A stretch of 64,000 nucleotides of DNA, taken from Thermoplasmata archaeon (lineage in GTDB: Archaea > Thermoplasmatota > Thermoplasmata > Lutacidiplasmatales > UBA184). Positions within the stretch are counted from its first letter, which is position 1. Each line of letters starts with the position of its first letter. Shown here one piece after another: positions 50,146-61,348 of this stretch. Below the pieces are notes generated by a model. That model made no database searches. It was not told the DNA's origin and saw only the letters and a program-made list of their open reading frames with translations. The position numbers and the translations under genes are program-made. The stretch lies in the NCBI GenBank assembly GCA_035622275.1, contig DASPVQ010000019.1, forward strand, positions 1 to 64,000, read 5' to 3'.

Positions 50146-50257
50146 GCCCGGGCTCCGTAGAGGGCCGCGTCCTTGAGCCTTTCTCGGCCCGCGCCCCCGG
50201 GGCCGTCGCCGGCCTCGGCCGAACAGTTGAAGAAGCCGGGCTTCCTCTCATCGCGCG

Positions 50258-50713
50258 GTGACCCCTCCGGTCAAGGCGCGCAGCGGCCACATCCTGCTGG
50301 ACGTGAAGCGGTCGTACAAGGACCTCGTTCGCGTCTATCCCGAGATCCACCGCCGCGTGGCCGAGATGAACCGCCCGTTCGTCAAGGAGACCGACCCGCT
50401 GCTCCCCGAGGTGCTCCTCGACGAGAACCTGCGCGACCTGAAAGGGGACCGCAAGCCCGCCGGCTACAACCGGCAGGACGCCTTCGGCCTGCGCCTGATC
50501 TTCCCGCTCGCGGACGAGAAGCGCGCCGAGTTCTACTTCACCAAGCCGGCCCGCTGCCAGGAGGTCGTGCAGATCACCGAGCAGGTGTCGGTCCTCCTCA
50601 AGCGCCGCGGCATCAAGCACACGGTCGAGTACGACCGCCTGCCGCTGGGGCCTCCCCGCGGACCCCCGGGTCTTCCGCCCATCGGCGCCGCGACCATGTT
50701 CGGATCGAGCTAG
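50258..50713 (+). CDS. Conserved-looking hypothetical protein
   Basis: 151 residues from a GTG; not recognised. Contains charged alternating segments (G-H-I-L-L-D-V-K-R-S-Y-K-D-L-V, F-G-L-R-L-I-F-P-L-A-D-E-K-R) and a Pro/Gly-rich end. Composition and codon use are coding-like. It is convergent with the helical-repeat gene; their stop codons share one CTAG (50710-50713). Confidence 0.6.
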   Translation: MTPPVKARSGHILLDVKRSYKDLVRVYPEIHRRVAEMNRPFVKETDPLLPEVLLDENLRDLKGDRKPAGYNRQDAFGLRLIFPLADEKRAEFYFTKPARCQEVVQITEQVSVLLKRRGIKHTVEYDRLPLGPPRGPPGLPPIGAATMFGSS

Positions 50714-53700
50714 GACGACTTGGTCTCGGCGGGGGGCCGCCGGAACGGCCAGAAGCTCGGCGAGACCGGCGGGGTACCCGCCGCCGTCGCGGCCCCACCG
50801 CTGCCGGTCCCCGCCGAGGCCGGTGGCTCCTCCTGCAGCAGGCGCAGCGCCTCGCGCGCCCGCTCGAGCGCCGCGGCGTAGTCGGTCTCCCGCAGGCGGA
50901 TCGACTCGGCGAGGAGCTGACGGGCCCGGCTCGTGTCCAGGTGGCTCTGCTGGGCGCGCGCGAGCGCCGCGTCGATCAGGTAGTGCAGGTTCAGCAGCTC
51001 GCGGTGGAGCGACTTCCGCAGGTTCAGCTCCTCCTCGACGGCGAGCAGCATCCGCGCCGCGTCGAGGAGCCGACCGGTCCGGTCGAGGACCTCGACCTCG
51101 CGCATGCGCTCCTGGACGGGGCCGACGCTCACGTGGAGGCCCTCCTGGGCGAAGTTGAGCTCGGTCTGGACGTCCTTCTGGCGCCGCACGAACGGTTCGC
51201 GGACCGCGCGCTCGAGCGCGGGCATCGCGGTCCCGAGGAGGCGCTCGGCCTCCTCGAGCTTGCCCGCATCGGCGGCGCTGCGCGCCTCGCTGAACGTCTG
51301 CATGACGGGCGTCGTGTCGAAGCCGAGGCGCTCGCCGACCCACAGCTGGTTCTTGAGCTCGGCGATCCGCGTCTCGACGAGCTCGCGGCGCCGGCGGCGC
51401 ACGATCTCGAGCTCGGTGCGGACGAGGTCGAGGGCGGCGGCAAACTCGCGGCGGCCGCGCAGCTCGAACAGGCGCTGCCGCACCTCGTCGCGCCGGGCGG
51501 ACTCGCCGGCGGCGACCGGCCCGCCGCGCAGCACCTCGGTCTCGACCTCGCGCCAGCGCGAATCGATGACCGTCTCGAAGGCGCGGCGGCCCGCGAGCTC
51601 GGCGCGGTCGATCGCCTCGCTCACGTGCTTCCACTCCCGGGCGCGCAGCGCGCCCTCGGCCTCGGCGACGATCGCTTCGAGCAGATCGACCTCGCCCGCG
51701 AGCTTCTCCCGTCGCGCCTGCTCCACCAGCCGACGCAGCTCGCCGAGCGGGGCCGCGAAGAGCCGTTCGATGGCCCAGCGGGCCATCTCGGTGGCCTCGC
51801 GGGCGGCCCGCATCGACTCCGGATACTGGCCGAGATCGGCGAGGCGCTTCGCGTCCTCCAGGCGGGCCGAGGCCTCCTGGGCCTCGGCGTCGAGCGACGC
51901 GGCCTCGGCCAGCTGGCGCTCGGCGGCGGCGAGGGCGTCCTTCGCGCGGCGATGGTTCTCCCGCAGCAGACCGAGCGCGTCGGAGACCGCCAGGGTCCGC
52001 TCGAGCACGCCGGGATAATCGTGGTCCTGGAACGCGGCCTTCGCGCGGGCGAGCTCGTCGGAAGGTCCGGTGGCGACGAGCCCGTCCGAGATCGCGCGGG
52101 CCAGCGAGCGCTCGGTCGCCTGCAGCGAGCCCTCCGCGATCCGCCGCTGCAGCTCCGCGCGCTCGAGCTCGGACTCGCTGCGCGCCGCGAGCTGCAGGGC
52201 CTCGACGGCCCGTCCGTCGTCGAGCGCCATCCGGGCCTGGTGGAGGAGGTTCTCGGCGACGGTCGTGTCACTGCCCTCGCGCTTGAGGCGCGTCAGCATC
52301 GCCTGGAAACCGGCGAGCGTCTTCGACACGTGCTGATAGGTCGACTGGAGCAGGTCGCGTTCGAGGGGGCCCCCGAGCTCGATGACCCGTCCGTAGTGGC
52401 GGCGGGCGAGCTCGGCCTCGAGCCGCTCCATCGCGGCGCGCAGGGCGGGCGTCTCGACGTGCAGCAGCTCGGCCTCGGCGAGCGCGTCGCGGGCGCGCTT
52501 GGCCACCCGCTGCGCGTGCTCGACGAAGCCGCGGGTGTCGACGAACTCCGCGCGGGCCTCGTCGAGCAAGGCCGCGGCGCCGGAGGGCACGGGCAGCGTG
52601 ATGCGGCGCCGGGCTTCCACCAGCGGCGCCAGGATCTTGTCGACGTCCACGCCGGCCCCCCGGGCGATGTCGAGGTCCCGCTCGAGACCGCGCAGGTTCT
52701 CCTCGAGCACCGGCCGCAGGATCGCGACGAGGTCGTCGTGCACGAGCTGGGCGGCGGTCTGGGTCGCGCCCGGGGGCGCGGTCGCCTGCTCGGTCTTGAG
52801 CTGGGCCAGCCGGGCCGCGAACGGCTCCATCGGGACCGCCAGCCGTCGCCCGTCCTCGATCAGGCGCTCGAGGTCCGCGAGGAGGCGGTTCGTCTCGGCC
52901 CGCGCGCCCTCGTCGGCGAGACCGCCCAGCGCCTTTTCCAGGTGGGCACGGGCCCCCTCGAAGTCGAGCGCCTGGAAGGCGAGGCGCGACTCGCGCAACG
53001 CCTCGTAGAACGGGCCGGGGTCCGCGCCGCTCTCGCGGAGGTGGCCGAGGAGCTCCTGGGCGCGGGCCAGCCCCTCGACGATCTCCAGCGCCTGTGCCGA
53101 GGTGCGGGCGGCGCTCTCCTCGAGCCGGCTCGCCGCCTTGTAGGCGCCGGCGTACTCGCCGGCGCGCGCCGACGCCTGGGCCTCCTCGAGCTGCGCGCGG
53201 AACTTGGCGAGGTCGAGGCCCATCGTCTCGAGTTCGACGAGCGCGAGCTTCGCGTGCGATACCGCCTCCTCGCTGCGCAGGAGCTGCTGCTGGCGCGCGC
53301 GCGTGCGGATCTCCTGGCTCGCCCGCGAGGCCTGGACGAAGTCGCCCATGTTGAAGATCTGCTGGACCTCGTCGATCTGGCGCTGGATCTCGTCGCCGGC
53401 CCCGCCCATCTCCTCGAGGACGCGGTTCTCGGCCTCCAGCTCCTCGACGAGCGCGCTCGCGTGGGCCGCGAACACCGCCGAGAAGTCGCGCTCCGCCCGT
53501 CGCAGGCTCTCGATCGAGGCGATCAGGTCCTGCTTGACGCGCAGCGTGACATCGGCGTCCGCGAGCAACCGTCGGATCGGCGCGGCGAGCGCCTCGTCCG
53601 GGATGTCCGCGAAGCCCTTCTCCATCTCTTCGATGCGTCGGGCCACGAACGGCTCGGCGGCGGTGCGCAGGGCGACCTCCACCGCGGCCAACCGCTCGAC

Positions 53701-54912
53701 GCCCTCGGCGAGCTGCCCCGCGTCCAGGAGCCCGCGGACCTCGGTGAGCTCGCGGTCGACGTTCTCGGGCAGGAACCCGCGATCGCGGGCGTAGGCTCGC
53801 ACCGCATCGAGCTCCGTCCACCGCTGCAGGAAGTACTTCAGCGCCTCCCGCCCGACCTGCAGGATCGCCTGCTGGAGCCCGGCGCGCGCGCCGTCGGTGT
53901 CGGCGCGCTCGAGCTGCGCGCGTACGCGCTGGAGGGCGGGGTCGAACGGCTCGGTCGAGAAGCCGGCCCGGCGCAGCCGGCCGAACATCTCCTCGACCGC
54001 CGCGAGCTCCTCGCGGACCGACTCCAGGTCCTCGGTGATCTGGGCGATGCGGTCGACGGCCTCCTGGCTCGCGGCGAGCGCCTCGGAGTAGATCTTGAGG
54101 CGGAGCGCCTCGCGCGCCCGATTCATGGCCGTGAACACCTCCGTGGGGTCGCGGCCGAGCCGCCGCGCCTCGGCGATGCGCGGTCGCACCTCGTCGAGCA
54201 GCCCGGCGACCACGGAGACGATCGGCTCCTCCGCGACGCGGCGGGCCTCGGCGAGCAGCGGCGCGATCTCGAGGGGCGAGGCGGTCGAGATGCGGGCGGC
54301 CGCCTCCTCGACCGCCTGCTGAGCGGTCGTCGGATCGACACCGTACTCCCGGGTCGCGGCGAGCGCGATCTTCAGCGCATCCAGCGCCTGGGATCCGCGC
54401 TCGCGCAGCGTCTCCCCCGTCTCCACGATCGCGTCCTCGATCCCTCGGACGGTCTCGGGCCAACGCTCGGGCGGCGCCTCCTGGTCCGCGCGCATCGCGG
54501 CCTCCAGCGCGCCGGTGCCGGTCGTGAACTCGGTGGCGATGGCGACCAGCTTCCGCGCGATCTCCCGGGTCTCCTCGCGACGCCGCCCCGCCTCGGGCAG
54601 GCCGTCGCGCAGGGTCCGGCGGATCCCGTCGATCGCCTCGGCGACGCGACCCTCGCCGGCGGGCGCGGCCGCGGCCTCGAGGCGCTTGGAGAACTCGGCC
54701 CGGCGGGCGGCGGACAGCTCGGCCCAGCCGGCGACCGCGAGCGCGCGCTGGCGCTCGACGTCGACGTACGAGCGCTGGAGCTCGCCGAGACCATCCTCGA
54801 CGCGCTTCAGTCGGCCGACCGTGTCGGCCCAGGGCACCCCCGACGGCGGATGCTCGAGGCTATCGAGCTCGGCCTTGAGCACGGGGGAGATCTGGATCCC
54901 GACGCCGGCCAA
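50710..54912 (-). CDS. Giant alpha-helical repeat protein
   Basis: At least 1,400 residues, nearly all amphipathic helix, rich in Ala, Glu, Arg and Leu, no membrane segment. Helical hairpins recur with a pattern of about 45 residues: helix, a turn such as R-x-x-G-F-S-T-E-P-F, R-L-G-F-D-T-T-P or R-E-S-G-A-D-P-G-P-F, then A-R-x-x-x-x-x-G-x-x-x-E-A. It resembles spectrin/TPR-like scaffolds but no family is certain. The first usable start here is TTG at 54912, yet the same frame is clearly coding for at least 110 codons further upstream (to about 55250) with no ATG, GTG or TTG; see the extension entry. C-terminus ends in a Pro/Gly/Ser tail. Confidence 0.8.
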   Translation of the reverse strand: MAGVGIQISPVLKAELDSLEHPPSGVPWADTVGRLKRVEDGLGELQRSYVDVERQRALAVAGWAELSAARRAEFSKRLEAAAAPAGEGRVAEAIDGIRRTLRDGLPEAGRRREETREIARKLVAIATEFTTGTGALEAAMRADQEAPPERWPETVRGIEDAIVETGETLRERGSQALDALKIALAATREYGVDPTTAQQAVEEAAARISTASPLEIAPLLAEARRVAEEPIVSVVAGLLDEVRPRIAEARRLGRDPTEVFTAMNRAREALRLKIYSEALAASQEAVDRIAQITEDLESVREELAAVEEMFGRLRRAGFSTEPFDPALQRVRAQLERADTDGARAGLQQAILQVGREALKYFLQRWTELDAVRAYARDRGFLPENVDRELTEVRGLLDAGQLAEGVERLAAVEVALRTAAEPFVARRIEEMEKGFADIPDEALAAPIRRLLADADVTLRVKQDLIASIESLRRAERDFSAVFAAHASALVEELEAENRVLEEMGGAGDEIQRQIDEVQQIFNMGDFVQASRASQEIRTRARQQQLLRSEEAVSHAKLALVELETMGLDLAKFRAQLEEAQASARAGEYAGAYKAASRLEESAARTSAQALEIVEGLARAQELLGHLRESGADPGPFYEALRESRLAFQALDFEGARAHLEKALGGLADEGARAETNRLLADLERLIEDGRRLAVPMEPFAARLAQLKTEQATAPPGATQTAAQLVHDDLVAILRPVLEENLRGLERDLDIARGAGVDVDKILAPLVEARRRITLPVPSGAAALLDEARAEFVDTRGFVEHAQRVAKRARDALAEAELLHVETPALRAAMERLEAELARRHYGRVIELGGPLERDLLQSTYQHVSKTLAGFQAMLTRLKREGSDTTVAENLLHQARMALDDGRAVEALQLAARSESELERAELQRRIAEGSLQATERSLARAISDGLVATGPSDELARAKAAFQDHDYPGVLERTLAVSDALGLLRENHRRAKDALAAAERQLAEAASLDAEAQEASARLEDAKRLADLGQYPESMRAAREATEMARWAIERLFAAPLGELRRLVEQARREKLAGEVDLLEAIVAEAEGALRAREWKHVSEAIDRAELAGRRAFETVIDSRWREVETEVLRGGPVAAGESARRDEVRQRLFELRGRREFAAALDLVRTELEIVRRRRRELVETRIAELKNQLWVGERLGFDTTPVMQTFSEARSAADAGKLEEAERLLGTAMPALERAVREPFVRRQKDVQTELNFAQEGLHVSVGPVQERMREVEVLDRTGRLLDAARMLLAVEEELNLRKSLHRELLNLHYLIDAALARAQQSHLDTSRARQLLAESIRLRETDYAAALERAREALRLLQEEPPASAGTGSGGAATAAGTPPVSPSFWPFRRPPAETKSS

Positions 54913-55379: not shown

Positions 55380-55766
55380 CTACTTGCGCGTGATCCGGCG
55401 CTTGCCCATCGCGTCGACGTACGCGACCTCGCTACCGGGCGACAGCTGGCCCTGGAGGTCCGCCTCGACCGGCATCGAGAACATCGCATAGGTCTCGAGG
55501 TCCATCAACTGTACCTCGGAGCCGCTCAGCGAGACGACCTGCGCCTGGCGCTTGCCGATCATCGGCACCTGCACCTTGTGGGTGACGGGGAAGACGACGG
55601 ACCGCTTGCGCTCGTCGAACAGGCCGACCGCATCGATGCGCGCCTTCGCCTCACCGTGCTTTCCCGGTTTGGACATCTGGATGCTCAGGATCCGGCAGGG
55701 TTCGTCATCGATGATCATGTAGCGGCCCTCCTTGAGCTCGCGGACCTCCTGCTGCGTCCAGGCCAT
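55380..55766 (-). CDS. Translation initiation factor aIF5A
   Basis: 128 residues; two beta-barrel domains. The hypusination lysine is Lys36 in S-K-P-G-K-H-G-E-A-K, the diagnostic eIF5A motif. It rescues stalled ribosomes, for example at polyproline, which is relevant because several proteins in this window are proline-rich. ATG 55766 is preceded by GAGAGG; a TATA-like GAGTTATGG lies near 55803-55812. Divergent from the large synthetase-like gene. Confidence 0.97.
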   Translation of the reverse strand: MAWTQQEVRELKEGRYMIIDDEPCRILSIQMSKPGKHGEAKARIDAVGLFDERKRSVVFPVTHKVQVPMIGKRQAQVVSLSGSEVQLMDLETYAMFSMPVEADLQGQLSPGSEVAYVDAMGKRRITRK

Positions 55767-55849
55767 GCGGGTGCCTCTCGGTCCGGCGGGGAGGGTCCCT
55801 CCGCCATAACTCTTGGGGTGGAGCCGTGCGCCCCGGGCCTGAGCAAGCC

Positions 55850-55864
55850 GAGGATTTAATCCTC
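55850..55864. promoter_or_regulatory. Perfect inverted repeat between aIF5A and the synthetase-like gene
   Basis: GAGGAT-TTA-ATCCTC, six-base arms about a three-base centre, in a GC-rich region. Its A/T core may be the TATA element for the gene at 55902 (about 45 nt away), and the arms could be an operator. Inference only. Confidence 0.4.
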
Positions 55865-55901
55865 GACCGCACCATCGTTTCCGACGACCTGGGCTATCTC
55901 G

Positions 55902-58900
55902 ATGCTCCCGTCCTCTGTGCGATCGGATCCCACCGCGGTCCGCGAGGCGCGCGCGCTCTGGCAGCGCGAGCACTTCCCACCGGCCAACGCGATCCTGGGC
56001 GGGACCGACGGCCCGATCGTCCACGGGCTCGAGGGCGCGTTCGCCCCACAGGAAGCGGGCGTGCTCGCCGTGCAGCGGGCCCTCGCGAGCGACGTCGACG
56101 CCAGAGCGCTCGCGCTGCTCGGCCGACGGGCCCGGGGGCTCCTGCGCCGGGAGGACTCGGGACCTCCACGAGCGGACCTGCCGCTCGAATCCCTGCTCGA
56201 GCGGCTCGGGGTCTGGGTCGGTGGATCGGACGGCCGGCCGTTCGACGCGGCGCCGCGCACGGCCGGCATCCAGGCGATCGCGGGCCGGCTCGCTCGCCTC
56301 GGTGCGCTCGCGGTGCGCGACGTGGCGCTGCGGGTCTGCCCGGCGTGCGCCCTGGTCCGGGACCCGGAGCGGATCGTGTACGAGGAGGAGGCCGGCGACA
56401 CCCTGCTCGTTCGGTTCCCGTTCACCTCGGGGGATCGGACCGTCAACGCGCTGGTGTGGGCCGACTCGGCCTGGCGGCTCCTCGGCACGAGCGCGCTGCT
56501 CGTCCACCCCGATCGTCCGTACGTGATCGCCCGCTTTCGCCGGCGGGGCGACGAGGAGCTGATCTTCGCCGCCCGTTCGTCCCTCGATCGTATCCGCGCC
56601 TGGCTCCCCGGCGCCGAGATCGAGGTCCTGGACGAGCAGCCCGGTCGTCACTGGGAGGGCACCCCGTACGTTCACCCGCTCCGGCACGAGTTCCCGCTCG
56701 GCGGGGGCCTCGAGCCGCCGGCGGGAACGATCCTATCGATCGCCGAGGTGACCGACACGGGCACGGGAGTGGTGCCCCTCGTGCCGGGTCACGGCGGGAC
56801 CGACGCGGGCATCGCGGAGCGGCTCGGAGTCCCCGGCTGGCCCCTGATCACGCCGAAGGGCCGCTTCGACATCATGCTCGTCCACAAGTACGCGGGACTC
56901 GAGCTCGAGAGCGGCGACGAGTTCGTCGCGCGGGACCTCGCCGAGGACGGATCGATCTTCGCGCGGCTTCGGGTGCGACGGGGGGTCCCGCACTGCGCGC
57001 GCTGCGGCACCGGGCTCGTGTGGGCGCCGGGCCGTGCGTGGTGCCTCGAGCCCTCGCGGCTGCCCGCCGCCTCCCGCGCCCTCTACCGCAGCCTGCTGCC
57101 GAACGACCGGCCGATCGAGCGGATCGAGACCGTGCCCTGGCCCGTCAGCGAACCGGCGCGTTCGGAGGATCCCGCGGCGATCCGACTGCTCGAGTGCGGC
57201 TCGTGCGACCGGCTCGACGCCCCGGACGGCGCCGGGGAGCGCTGCGTCTGTGGGGGACGCCGACGCCCCGTCGCGCGCCGCCTGCTGCCGGCGTTCGAGG
57301 CCGCCGCCGCCGCGTGGAGCGCGCTCGACCCGCTCCCCCGCTCCGATTCGGTCCGCCTGTATCTCAACGATCGTCGCCGGGCACCGGCGCTCGTGCACCA
57401 GTTGGCGGCGATGAGCGGCACGTCCGCCCCGGTCACCGAGATGCGCCTGACGGTCCTGCCGACCCTTCCCGAGATCGACCTGGCCGCCGAGATCGACGAA
57501 CTGGGGCCGGACGCGGTGCGCGCGGCCCTCGTCCGGAGCGAGGCCGCCGAGGGTCGCACCGCCCGCTTCCGACCGCGCTGTCGGCAGGAGCGCGAACGGC
57601 TCGCCCGATTCGCCCGGACCTCGGAGGAGATCGTGGGCGCCATCGACCCGAGCCTGCTGCCCAGCTACGGGGCACCGATCGCCGGCGCGCTCGCCGAGCT
57701 CGAACCGGAGGATCGCGCCCTGCTCGCGCGGTTCGAGCGCATGCGCGCCCAGGCCGTCGCGGAGTACGATCGCGGCACGCCCGCGCTCGCGCATCGCCGG
57801 CTGTTCCGGTTCCTCGAGAACGATCTCGACGTCTACCGCGAGTGGACCGCCGGCCGCCTCGCGCCATCGGCGACCGCCCTGTCCAAGCGGGGTGCGCAGC
57901 GGACCCTCCTCTACATCGTCGCGCAGTCGAGCCTGCTGCTCGCGCCGATCGCCCCCCACACGGCGGAGTCGATCCACGCGCGGCTCGCTCCCCGGCGGGC
58001 GAGCGTCTTCGCCGAGACCGTGGCCCCGGCGGACCGCGCGCTGCTGGACGAGGAGCGGGCGAAGGCGTGGGACCGGTGGCGATCAGTCCTCGGGGCGCTC
58101 GATCGCTTCCGGCGCGCGCACGGGATCGCCCCGGAGGCGCTCCTCCCGTCCGCCGTCCTCGTGCTTCCCACCGACCCCATCGCCGAGGCGTATCGGGCCG
58201 AGGCGCCGATCCTCGAGCGGATGGGCCGGCTCGGCAAGATCGAGGTCGCCTCCCCCTCCTCACCGTGGACCGGCCGGCGTCGGTTGCTCAAGCCGGTCGA
58301 ATCGGAGATCCAGCGCGTGTACGGTGCGCGGGGGGCGCAGCTGATCCACCTGCTCCGGCGGATGCCCGAGCGCAAGTGGACCGATGGCAGCGCCTCGGGT
58401 TTCTCGGTCCAGATCAGCGGCCAGCCCACGCAGGTCCTTCCCTCGATGGTCGACTGGGTCGACGTGCTGCCCGAGCACGTGCGGCCGGTGCGCTGGAACG
58501 ACGGCGAGCTCTACGTCGAGGCTCCCACGACCACCCCGCTGCCCGCACCGGGTCCCCCCCCGCTGTCATCCGACGCGTTCCGGCTGGTGGAGCGCCTCGC
58601 AGGCCGCGCCCGGGCGTCCCGGGCCGAGCGCTCGACACCCCCCGTGGCCCTCGTCGTGGCACGCGAGCCGTTGTCGAAGGAGCTCGCGGCAGAGGCGGTC
58701 ACGATCGCGGGCTACCTGGGTCTGGCCGAGCTGCGGTTGGTCGCCTCCGATCGCGAGTTCCCGCCCGGACGCCGGGAGTCCGGCCGCGACAGCGAGGGAG
58801 TGGGGTGGTCGTTCCATCTCTCGGGCGACGCGGCGCGACCCCGCGCGCGCCGGCGCGCGCCGTCGGGGGAGAAGGGCGCCCGCGTCCGACCGGCGTTCCT

Positions 58901-60536
58901 TCCGAGCTCGTTCGCTCCCGCGGCGATCGACTACTCGAGCGAGGAGTTCCTCGCCCAGGAGGCGGCGATCCGGGCGTTCGGCGCGGAAGTCGACCAGATC
59001 ATGGGCGGAGCCCTGATCGGACCCTCGAAGCTGCGCGGCGCCTGGCAGGCCGGGCTGCACGGCGTCGAGGATCTCCGCCACGCCCCGTGGGAGACCCTGG
59101 TGGGGCTGCCCGGCTTCGGCGAGCCGGTCGCCGCGAGCCTGGTCGAGCACCTCGGGGGCACCGTGCCTCCGCGCGCGCCGCGCGCCCGTCGCGCCGCCGT
59201 TGCTCGGACCCGACCCGAGCTCCCTACCGACGTTCCGCTCGCCTCTCCCGATCCGGCCCGGAACGCTCCTCCACCGCTACCAGAACGAGAGCCACCCATG
59301 GTCCCGTTCGGCTCCGTCGCCGTGGCGCCGCCGGCGATCGTGACCCCGGCGCCGAAGGTACCGGAGCGGATCGAGCCCCGCCCGCCCGCGCTTTCGGCAC
59401 CGCCGCCGGAGGCCGCGCTGCCGGCCGGACCGGCCGACGCTTCGCTGGAGTTCGCTCTGCCACCCCCGGAGGAGGTGGCCGCCCTACCCGGTCCCGAGGA
59501 GATCTCGGGGCGGCCGGCCGGCGATACCGGAGCAGTACCTCTCGGGCCCGCGTCGCCTCCGGAGGGGTGGCCGGCGACTCCACCTCCCGCGCCCGCCGAC
59601 GCGCTGGCGCCCGTCACGGCGACCGGATCCGATATCTCCGTGGCGCCAGAGCCCGAAGCCTCGCCTGTGGAGCTCGCCCCGGGAACGAGCGCGGTCGTGC
59701 CGGGGTCAGAACCGATGCCCGAGCCGTCGTCCGATGGGCTAGCACCGGCGGGAGAGGCCGTGACGCCGTCCGAACCGACGGGCCCGCCGCTCTCGCCCGG
59801 GGCTGGGCCGACGGGCTCCCCCGACCACGACGCAGACCCCGAGGCGGCTCCGGAACCGCCGAGCCCGGTGCCCGTCACCGGGGCACCGGAGCCGTTGCCC
59901 GTCGCGGCCGCGCCCGAGGTGACGGTCCCTTCCGCGCCCCCGCCCCTGTCGCCCGGCCCGAGCCCGGAGCCGCGAACCGGCCCGATCCCTCCGCCGCCAC
60001 CCGTGCCGACCGGCGAGGCGACCCTGCCGCCGGACATCTTCGACACCGGTTCGGTCCCCCTCGCGCCCGTGGTCCCCACGCCGACGGGGGGTGTCGAGCT
60101 CGATGTCGGCGTGAGCTACTTCCCGTCGCTGGAGCGATTCCTCGACGCGTCCGCGGCCGGGCACCTCGGGATCTGCGTGGTCCGGGACTCTCCGGAGCGC
60201 GTGCGGGCCTACGCCGGCTCGCGCCCGGTCGAGATCCGCTGGCTGACGAACATCGGGCGCGGGGCGACGCTGAAGCCGACCGACCTCGAGGGGTTCTCGG
60301 CCTTCCTCTCCCACGCGGTCAGCCAGGGCCGGGCGACCGTGTTCTTCCTGGAGGGCGTCGAGTACCTGGTGCGATTGCATGGCCTCGAGCGCGTGGTCGC
60401 GGTGCTCACCGCGTTCGACGCGCTCGCGCGCGAGCACGCCGCCCGCGTCTGGGTCCACCTGAATCCCCGCTTGCTCTCGGCCGCGGAGCTGGAGCGGTTC
60501 ACCGTGGCGCTCTCCCCGACCGGTGCGTCCGGTTAG
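55902..60536 (+). CDS. Degenerate class I aminoacyl-tRNA synthetase (IleRS-like) fused to HhH and DUF835 domains
   Basis: 1,544 residues. Residues 1-~700 follow the isoleucyl/valyl synthetase plan: CP1-like region with C-P-A-C...A-L-V-W-A-D-S-A-W-R-L-L-G (where active enzymes read WTTTPWTLP), V-T-D-T-G-T-G-V-V-P-L-V-P-G-H-G at about 283-298, P-H-C-A-R-C at 363-368, a zinc-like C-G-S-C...C-V-C near 431, and the anticodon-domain L-L-A-P-I-A-P-H-T-A-E-S-I-H near 680. HIGH and KMSKS are absent, so it should not aminoacylate. A helix-hairpin-helix region (about 1040-1086) follows, then a ~300-residue Pro/Ala/Glu linker and a C-terminal DUF835 domain (about 1400-1544). Function unknown; a tRNA- or amino-acid-sensing regulator is inferred. 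Confidence 0.82.
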   Translation: MLPSSVRSDPTAVREARALWQREHFPPANAILGGTDGPIVHGLEGAFAPQEAGVLAVQRALASDVDARALALLGRRARGLLRREDSGPPRADLPLESLLERLGVWVGGSDGRPFDAAPRTAGIQAIAGRLARLGALAVRDVALRVCPACALVRDPERIVYEEEAGDTLLVRFPFTSGDRTVNALVWADSAWRLLGTSALLVHPDRPYVIARFRRRGDEELIFAARSSLDRIRAWLPGAEIEVLDEQPGRHWEGTPYVHPLRHEFPLGGGLEPPAGTILSIAEVTDTGTGVVPLVPGHGGTDAGIAERLGVPGWPLITPKGRFDIMLVHKYAGLELESGDEFVARDLAEDGSIFARLRVRRGVPHCARCGTGLVWAPGRAWCLEPSRLPAASRALYRSLLPNDRPIERIETVPWPVSEPARSEDPAAIRLLECGSCDRLDAPDGAGERCVCGGRRRPVARRLLPAFEAAAAAWSALDPLPRSDSVRLYLNDRRRAPALVHQLAAMSGTSAPVTEMRLTVLPTLPEIDLAAEIDELGPDAVRAALVRSEAAEGRTARFRPRCRQERERLARFARTSEEIVGAIDPSLLPSYGAPIAGALAELEPEDRALLARFERMRAQAVAEYDRGTPALAHRRLFRFLENDLDVYREWTAGRLAPSATALSKRGAQRTLLYIVAQSSLLLAPIAPHTAESIHARLAPRRASVFAETVAPADRALLDEERAKAWDRWRSVLGALDRFRRAHGIAPEALLPSAVLVLPTDPIAEAYRAEAPILERMGRLGKIEVASPSSPWTGRRRLLKPVESEIQRVYGARGAQLIHLLRRMPERKWTDGSASGFSVQISGQPTQVLPSMVDWVDVLPEHVRPVRWNDGELYVEAPTTTPLPAPGPPPLSSDAFRLVERLAGRARASRAERSTPPVALVVAREPLSKELAAEAVTIAGYLGLAELRLVASDREFPPGRRESGRDSEGVGWSFHLSGDAARPRARRRAPSGEKGARVRPAFLPSSFAPAAIDYSSEEFLAQEAAIRAFGAEVDQIMGGALIGPSKLRGAWQAGLHGVEDLRHAPWETLVGLPGFGEPVAASLVEHLGGTVPPRAPRARRAAVARTRPELPTDVPLASPDPARNAPPPLPEREPPMVPFGSVAVAPPAIVTPAPKVPERIEPRPPALSAPPPEAALPAGPADASLEFALPPPEEVAALPGPEEISGRPAGDTGAVPLGPASPPEGWPATPPPAPADALAPVTATGSDISVAPEPEASPVELAPGTSAVVPGSEPMPEPSSDGLAPAGEAVTPSEPTGPPLSPGAGPTGSPDHDADPEAAPEPPSPVPVTGAPEPLPVAAAPEVTVPSAPPPLSPGPSPEPRTGPIPPPPPVPTGEATLPPDIFDTGSVPLAPVVPTPTGGVELDVGVSYFPSLERFLDASAAGHLGICVVRDSPERVRAYAGSRPVEIRWLTNIGRGATLKPTDLEGFSAFLSHAVSQGRATVFFLEGVEYLVRLHGLERVVAVLTAFDALAREHAARVWVHLNPRLLSAAELERFTVALSPTGASG

Positions 60537-60575
60537 ACGGGCGGGCCGCGGAGGACTGGGCCTCCGCTGGCAAAG

Positions 60576-60585
60576 GTAGATATCC
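60576..60585 (+). promoter_or_regulatory. TATA-like element
   Basis: GTAGATATCC centred 27 nt before the ATG at 60608. Confidence 0.6.
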
Positions 60586-60607
60586 CACAACACGGGTGGC
60601 GCGCGCC

Positions 60608-61348
60608 ATGGCGGAGCCCTCGGGGCGTCGGCGCTGGCCCGGTGGCCGCATCGCGCTCGCCAGCGCCCTGGTCGCGCTGCTGGCCGTGTCGATCGTGCTT
60701 CCGGCCGCGAGCGTCGCGGCCCCCGCCCGCGCGCCGGTCGCGGTCGCCCGACCTTACGCGGACCCGGCGATCACCGCGCGGGTAACCTGGAACGGGGCCG
60801 ACGTCGCGAACTACTCCGCGCCGACGGCCGCTGCGAGCATCTCCTTCGGACAGACCGTCGACGTGCACTACACCTGGAGCTCGTCGGCGCTGGCGGGCGC
60901 GCCGATGTACGAGATCACGGACGCCCGGCTGCAGATCTACTACTTCGGCTTCGCGCTCGCCACCCGCGACATCCTCGACTCGGTCGCCGTTCCCGCGACG
61001 TCCGGTTCGTTCGACATGAACTGGTCGACCGGCTCGCTCCAGTACATCCTGGAGGGGAGCTACGAGCTCACGGCGAGCCTGCTCGCCTCGAACGGTACGA
61101 CCATGTTCAGCGAGTCGTTCTGGGTGCTGGTCGCGGCGCCGTTCTACGTCGGCGCCCTGCTACCGATCGTTCTGATCCTGATCATCATCTACGAGATCTA
61201 CGGCATCGCGACGGTCGGCAAGCAGGCCGCGCTCGGTCGCCCTCCGAAGGGTCCTGCCGAGGCGCCCGCTCCGGCCGAGCCCGCCCCGGCGCCCGAGGAG
61301 GCTCCGCCGCCGACCGACGTTAGCCCGCCACCCACCGGGGGCCCGTGA
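60608..61348 (+). CDS. Exported single-anchor membrane protein
   Basis: 246 residues; not recognised. Signal-like helix at about residues 14-36, an extracytoplasmic beta-rich domain (residues ~45-175; V-D-V-H-Y-T-W-S-S, T-D-A-R-L-Q-I-Y-Y-F-G-F), a strong membrane helix A-L-L-P-I-V-L-I-L-I-I-I-Y at about 182-205, then a Pro/Ala-rich cytosolic tail. TATA-like element gives a leaderless ATG. The next small gene overlaps its stop as GTGA. Confidence 0.75.
   Translation: MAEPSGRRRWPGGRIALASALVALLAVSIVLPAASVAAPARAPVAVARPYADPAITARVTWNGADVANYSAPTAAASISFGQTVDVHYTWSSSALAGAPMYEITDARLQIYYFGFALATRDILDSVAVPATSGSFDMNWSTGSLQYILEGSYELTASLLASNGTTMFSESFWVLVAAPFYVGALLPIVLILIIIYEIYGIATVGKQAALGRPPKGPAEAPAPAEPAPAPEEAPPPTDVSPPPTGGP

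Follow-up and report, generated by a model that had tools for sequence, protein, structure and literature searches.

An isoleucyl-tRNA synthetase-like protein that lacks catalytic motifs and carries a DUF835 tail in Lutacidiplasmatales, and its relatives in Thermoplasmata

Aminoacyl-tRNA synthetases that moonlight or have become pseudoenzymes have been described before, though for the most part each as an isolated end point. The 64,000-nucleotide stretch of archaeal DNA analyzed here (the window) encodes a protein that raises a wider question: what becomes of an isoleucyl-tRNA synthetase (IleRS) that has lost its catalytic motifs, and which of its parts are retained? The initial annotation described this protein as a catalytically dead IleRS relative fused to a helix-hairpin-helix (HhH) domain, a Pro-rich linker, and DUF835. 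It called for superposition of a predicted structure on an IleRS, a search for a complete IleRS elsewhere in the genome, and a check of whether the fusion is conserved in relatives; the results of all three are given below.

Synthetase shell and KaiC-like tail

The open reading frame (ORF) lies where it had been placed, with an ATG at 55902 and a stop codon ending at 60536, and homologues hold the frame at 36-69% identity, in full-length open frames of 1374-2074 codons. Comparison of these genes gives dN of 0.23-0.65 and dS of 0.71-1.12, and the resulting dN/dS of ~0.3-0.6, in which dS is probably too low at such GC content, indicates that the gene is under purifying selection. A random ORF is ruled out by the conserved full-length frames and the dN/dS values, and a frame-overlap artefact by the fact that homology backs only the 55902-60536 frame; long out-of-frame ORFs (e.g., 55826-61348) are there because of the high GC content. 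The gene and its parts are as follows.

55902..60536 (+), pseudo-IleRS-HhH-DUF835 gene, 1544 aa (ORF; full length kept in relatives)
55929..56321 (+), N-terminal half of the class I Rossmann domain, residues 10-140, with HIGH replaced and the WDxHG segment deleted (motif alignment, model)
56322..57056 (+), CP1 (editing) domain, residues 141-385 (ileS profile, E 1e-26; Z 24.6 to 1ue0)
56457..56486 (+), former Thr-rich editing motif, now W186-A-D188-S-A-W191-R-L-L-G (alignment to E. coli IleRS)
57057..57701 (+), C-terminal half of the Rossmann domain, with a Cys-rich zinc element and the KMSKS loop deleted (alignment)
57702..58136 (+), anticodon-binding domain, residues 601-745 (Pfam Anticodon_1, E 7e-15; model)
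58137..58841 (+), IleRS C-terminal domain(s), residues 746-980, the DUF5915 region of relatives (structure match, relatives' profiles)
58941..59156 (+), HhH-like domain, residues 1014-1085 (weak HHH_5 and L32e matches, helices in the model)
59187..60101 (+), Pro-rich acidic linker, residues 1096-1400, ~300 aa (composition)
60117..60509 (+), DUF835 domain, residues 1406-1536 (Pfam E 2e-12, model)

Profile searches of the pseudo-IleRS return ileS at residues 160-383 (E 1e-26), valS at residues 531-788, and Pfam Anticodon_1 at residues 604-746 (E 7e-15). There is no match to tRNA-synt_1, the Pfam profile of the catalytic domain, and the protein's score with the curated NCBIfam ileS model (93 bits) falls below the cut-off of 621. 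Residues 1-1091 were modeled with AlphaFold from an alignment of 45 family members (mean pLDDT 87), and residues 5-876 of the model superpose on whole IleRS structures with Z of ~21-25 (maximum 24.7). The top structural matches are IleRS. The CP1 domain by itself fits the editing domain of Thermus thermophilus IleRS at 1.7-1.9 Å (1ue0: 1.7 Å over 175 residues, Z 24.6). The whole synthetase shell is thus predicted to persist, with the Rossmann fold present and the catalytic motifs missing. None of the findings named as refuting the initial annotation applies, be it an intact catalytic core, a genome lacking another IleRS, or closest similarity to proteins other than class I synthetases.

The absence of HIGH and KMSKS that the initial annotation reported is borne out by alignment to E. 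coli IleRS: H65-I-G-H68 corresponds to G53-V-L-A56, and residues 602-608, which hold the KMSKS loop, fall into a gap shared by every aligned member of the window's genus. The WDxHG segment is deleted as well, and the editing motif TTTPWTLP is replaced, exactly as had been read, by A-D-S-A-W-R-L-L-G, with T241-T242-T243 of E. coli becoming A187-D188-S189. E. coli D342 is kept as D301, and the active-site H333 is P292. The zinc cysteines of CP1 (C146/C149 and C365/C368) and those of the Rossmann zinc element (C432, C435, C448, and C450) are invariant among the aligned homologues (A3), as are W186, D188, W191, and D301 in 45/45 sequences; a conserved R491-R492-R493 patch occupies the former DQTRGWF position. 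Judged by these alignments, the protein is almost certainly derived from IleRS and devoid of aminoacylation motifs. An enzyme with rebuilt chemistry, one that might, for example, load a protein or a metabolite with a different amino acid, would account for the preserved shell and the arginine patch, but with HIGH and KMSKS missing and WDxHG deleted we regard it as very unlikely.

The tail that follows the shell is supported by profiles, composition, and the model, in agreement with the proposed fusion. The HHH_5 match is weak in the window protein (residues 1039-1084, E 0.006, 17.5 bits, cut-off 27), exceeds the cut-off in two relatives (L031 and L041), and is accompanied by L32e matches over the same domain (E 0.06) and by an HhH-like set of helices at residues 1014-1083 of the AlphaFold model. 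The linker, 29% Pro with a net charge of -27, is the least conserved part of the protein. DUF835 (PF05763) matches residues 1418-1532 with E 2e-12 (47.6 bits versus a gathering cut-off of 33.1), and its model (pLDDT 94) has a KaiC/RecA-like fold, with Z of 13.5 to KaiC and 13.1 to FlaH. No Walker A (P-loop) motif GxxxxGK[ST] is found in residues 1398-1544. A KaiC-like fold without a P-loop agrees with a published account of archaeal response regulators, in which DUF835 is described as a KaiC domain that has become inactive (PMC5847659).

Locus and distribution in Lutacidiplasmatales

Named relatives of the window's organism, UBA184 and “Candidatus Lutacidiplasma silvani,” belong to the Lutacidiplasmatales, an order of soil archaea (PMC9287336). 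The pseudo-IleRS is found in most genomes sampled from the window's genus, and another genus of the family has it too. Several near-complete genomes of relatives lack it (G001, G002, G013, G019, and G162, and the family members G048, G068, G083, G124, and G137), so that it is dispensable in some lineages. Such patchy loss, together with fast evolution, is what a functionless relic in decay would show, but a relic is made highly improbable by full-length frames (1374-2074 codons), zinc cysteines that do not vary, and dN/dS of ~0.3-0.6.

Two genes on the opposite strand accompany the pseudo-IleRS throughout the family.

50710..54912 (-), 1400-aa protein, helical/coiled-coil-like and with no confident Pfam match, next to aIF5A and the pseudo-IleRS in 24/24 family loci
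55380..55766 (-), aIF5A, divergent neighbor in 24/24 family loci and in 0/26 loci of other families

Loci of other families do not share these neighbor genes. At 50231-50710 (+), an open frame of ~160 aa, ~86% identical across the family and without a Pfam match, is present in 22/24 loci. A palindrome, GAGGATTTAATCCTC, lies at 55850-55864, between the divergent aIF5A and pseudo-IleRS genes; a simple pattern search found no equivalent of it in 17 relatives.

Five Lutacidiplasmatales genomes, all of the window's genus, have few DUF835 proteins, 2 each versus 5-30 in 11 genomes of other families, and in all 5 genomes one of the two is the pseudo-IleRS. In the window's genome, the sole other DUF835-like protein (L186, G000:C1:21904-22086) is a partial match within a 423-codon frame. 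The genome also encodes full KaiC-family ATPase domains, which are possible partners of DUF835.

Intact and decayed fusions across Thermoplasmata

The window's genome does encode a complete IleRS (L002), which carries HLGH, WDCHGLP, TTTPWTLP, and KMSKS. Among the compared sequences, it groups in a tree with the IleRS of Rhodococcus and Prevotella, away from E. coli IleRS1, and in a plasmid search with a protein of this type from the genus, Rhodococcus IleRS and MupA are the top matches. A scan of 150 genomes of the class, with motifs tabulated for ~110 IleRS-like ORFs, shows that the IleRS proteins of Thermoplasmata fall into two lineages. The archaeal one, type A, has the motifs HxGT...DMHGLP...M-S-K-S and, in most families, an HhH-linker-DUF835 end. 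Type B, to which L002 belongs, is ~1000 aa long, and none of the type B proteins examined has DUF835.

The fusion is conserved far beyond the window's genus, in about a dozen families with intact motifs (f4, f5, f7, f11, f14, f16, f17, f20, f21, f22, f25, and f28). In 52 genomes we checked every IleRS encoded. A motif-intact fused type A protein is the only IleRS in 18 of them (G028, G031, G035, G038, G040, G047, G058, G062, G063, G065, G067, G086, G096, G102, G104, G114, G127, and G133), its motifs having been read directly for at least one member of each family. Six more genomes, five of f5 and G052 of f20, combine an intact fused type A with a type B protein whose motifs are damaged (e.g., KISRASEN, KIEAEGEA, and AMHRSKGN). 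A decayed fused type A is encoded in 21, where the second IleRS is a complete type B with good motifs in 17 genomes, a type B fragment at a contig end in 3, and an intact type A in 1 (G092). The remaining genomes have an unfused type A (4) or only type B (3). Thus, every sampled genome with a decayed fusion has another IleRS (21/21) and every genome with an intact fusion lacks an intact second one (24/24), a concordance that is not repeated independent evidence, since the decayed proteins form one side of a branch in a tree of type A alone; for the same reason, an independent-pairs test relating decay to the presence of a second IleRS has no power. The fusion architecture is not particular to the pseudoenzyme; to judge from motifs, many related families apparently have it in a working enzyme that is their only IleRS.

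Decay of the fused copy is seen in eight families, including the window's own (f1, Lutacidiplasmatales), and it differs in degree: most motifs remain in f2 and f13, nearly all are gone from f3, f6, and f9, and f1 has deleted them. Within f6, L032 has no DUF835 and L077 has a weak one. The mirror case is seen in f5 (L075, L187-L190) and f20 (L096, L202, and L203), where the unfused type B has decayed beside an intact fused type A; KMSKS is missing or changed in these type B proteins, and so, in some of them, are letters of HIGH and of the editing motif, yet they retain near full length. The genome G092 (74% complete) has one intact and one decayed type A protein, L196 (G092:C277) and L112 (G092:C336); the presence of both may reflect duplication or contamination, and it is the intact copy that may be the contaminant.

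This coexistence of live and dead copies in both directions (decayed A with live B in most of the eight families, decayed B with live fused A in f5 and f20) would fit a dead copy that serves the genuine IleRS, or translation, as an accessory subunit and tunes its activity by binding to the type B IleRS or to the ribosome. The aIF5A gene next door in 24/24 family loci points the same way, and mitochondrial SLIMP, a SerRS relative, and HisZ, which acts with HisG, are precedents (PMC9437257). However, the tail needs no partner copy, as the 18 genomes with only an intact fusion lack one, and the window's family can drop the pseudo-copy yet retain type B. We therefore consider an accessory subunit rather improbable.

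Outside the class, profile searches detected no DUF835 in 11 loci examined, and the matches listed for the phylum's other classes stop short of the tail. A phage search gave weak IleRS-like matches only. The initial annotation knew of no described fusion of a synthetase pseudoenzyme to DUF835; likewise, we found no report of an IleRS-DUF835 fusion in the open-access literature on DUF835, Thermoplasmata IleRS, and IleRS with KaiC.

Descent, proposed role, and comparison with known systems

In trees, the decayed fused proteins group with archaeal type A (SH-aLRT 95), and the shared DUF835 tail and archaeal C-terminal domain further support descent from a fused enzyme. The order among the decayed branches is unreliable because of their length, and their grouping is possibly due to long-branch attraction, so that decay may have one or several origins. 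Since the same architecture is found in intact sole IleRS, the DUF835 fusion very probably preceded decay; a fusion made by the dead protein is ruled out, as intact enzymes carry it too.

Constraint has shifted among the parts of the decayed proteins. In f2, f13, f18/24, f9, and f3, DUF835 is 47-59% identical to that of intact fusions, which share 54% among themselves, and for the first C-terminal domain the corresponding values are 34-42% and 43%. Both parts are thus about as well conserved as in intact enzymes, whereas the Rossmann halves are at 17-48%, compared with 57-58% among intact fusions. In the window's genus all parts have drifted far, and DUF835, only 23% identical to intact fusions, may have an altered function. 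There, CP1 is the best-conserved part in four genomes (53.9% versus 33-39% for the Rossmann halves), whereas both parts of the genuine IleRS stand at 67-69% in those genomes. CP1 may have gained a ligand-binding role in this genus. The same contrast, along with the 1.7-Å fit to 1ue0 and the four residues invariant in 45 sequences, could mark the protein as centered on CP1, either a freestanding trans-editing factor or a sensor of amino acids or aminoacyl-tRNA that uses the old editing pocket. Such a role seems unlikely to us, as the Thr residues and the active-site His are gone (A187-D188-S189 and P292) and the pocket letters vary between other decayed lineages, which argues against a shared editing chemistry.

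The explanation that we favor, with about an even chance of being right as a whole, is that a decayed fused IleRS has been retained as a noncatalytic adaptor. Its descent from the archaeal-type IleRS of Thermoplasmata, which carries the HhH-linker-DUF835 tail in many families of the class, is well supported. In the window's lineage, a second, IleRS2-like enzyme would have taken over aminoacylation, and because of this takeover the old enzyme would have lost its catalytic motifs while retaining the synthetase shell and the tail. We infer that the shell, through its anticodon and C-terminal domains, binds tRNA or an aminoacyl ligand, with the CP1 pocket probably adding to ligand binding in the window's genus, and that the flexible linker presents the inactive KaiC-like DUF835 to a signaling or scaffolding partner. 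This second role was probably present already in the active fused enzymes, which would explain how the pseudo-IleRS could survive the loss of catalysis. In IleRS structures, the first C-terminal domain belongs to the tRNA-binding end. Its retention with DUF835 across most decayed lineages favors an adaptor that links the state of tRNA or translation to a DUF835 partner. The suggestion of the initial annotation, that the protein may read the state of tRNA or of branched-chain amino acids, is a hypothesis. More tentatively, the housekeeping IleRS of Thermoplasmata may carry a built-in KaiC-like sensor of translation state, and sensing may persist after catalysis has been handed over; if so, the class holds a natural series from a bifunctional enzyme to a pure sensor.

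The closest counterparts of the window protein are the intact IleRS-HhH-DUF835 proteins of Thermoplasmata (e.g., in G029 and G040), which share its domain order, archaeal C-terminal domain, and DUF835 tail but keep HxGT, DMHGLP, TTTPWT, and M-S-K-S. Except in f5 and part of f20, no other IleRS accompanies them in the genomes checked. LeuRS-I of Sulfolobaceae and LeuRS2 of Halobacteria are likewise duplicated archaeal class I synthetases, with aminoacylation lost or reduced and tRNA affinity kept; unlike the pseudo-IleRS, they derive from LeuRS and have no described DUF835 or HhH tail, and LeuRS-I still makes adenylate (PMC9437257). HisZ, a HisRS paralog without aminoacylation, is a regulatory subunit, but it is a bacterial class II protein that acts on HisG, and SLIMP, a regulatory SerRS paralog that pairs with the live enzyme, is a class II protein of insect mitochondria (PMC9437257). 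The REC-DUF835 and REC-PAS-DUF835 regulators of Methanomicrobia and Thermoplasmata have DUF835 at the C terminus as well, with a receiver domain, not a synthetase, as input (PMC5847659). Through the fusion described here, DUF835, a widespread archaeal domain of unknown function, gains a concrete physical link to translation. A single class holds the same fusion in apparently working, half-decayed, and fully dead copies, and with such a graded series one can ask which part of a synthetase selection keeps once catalysis is redundant.
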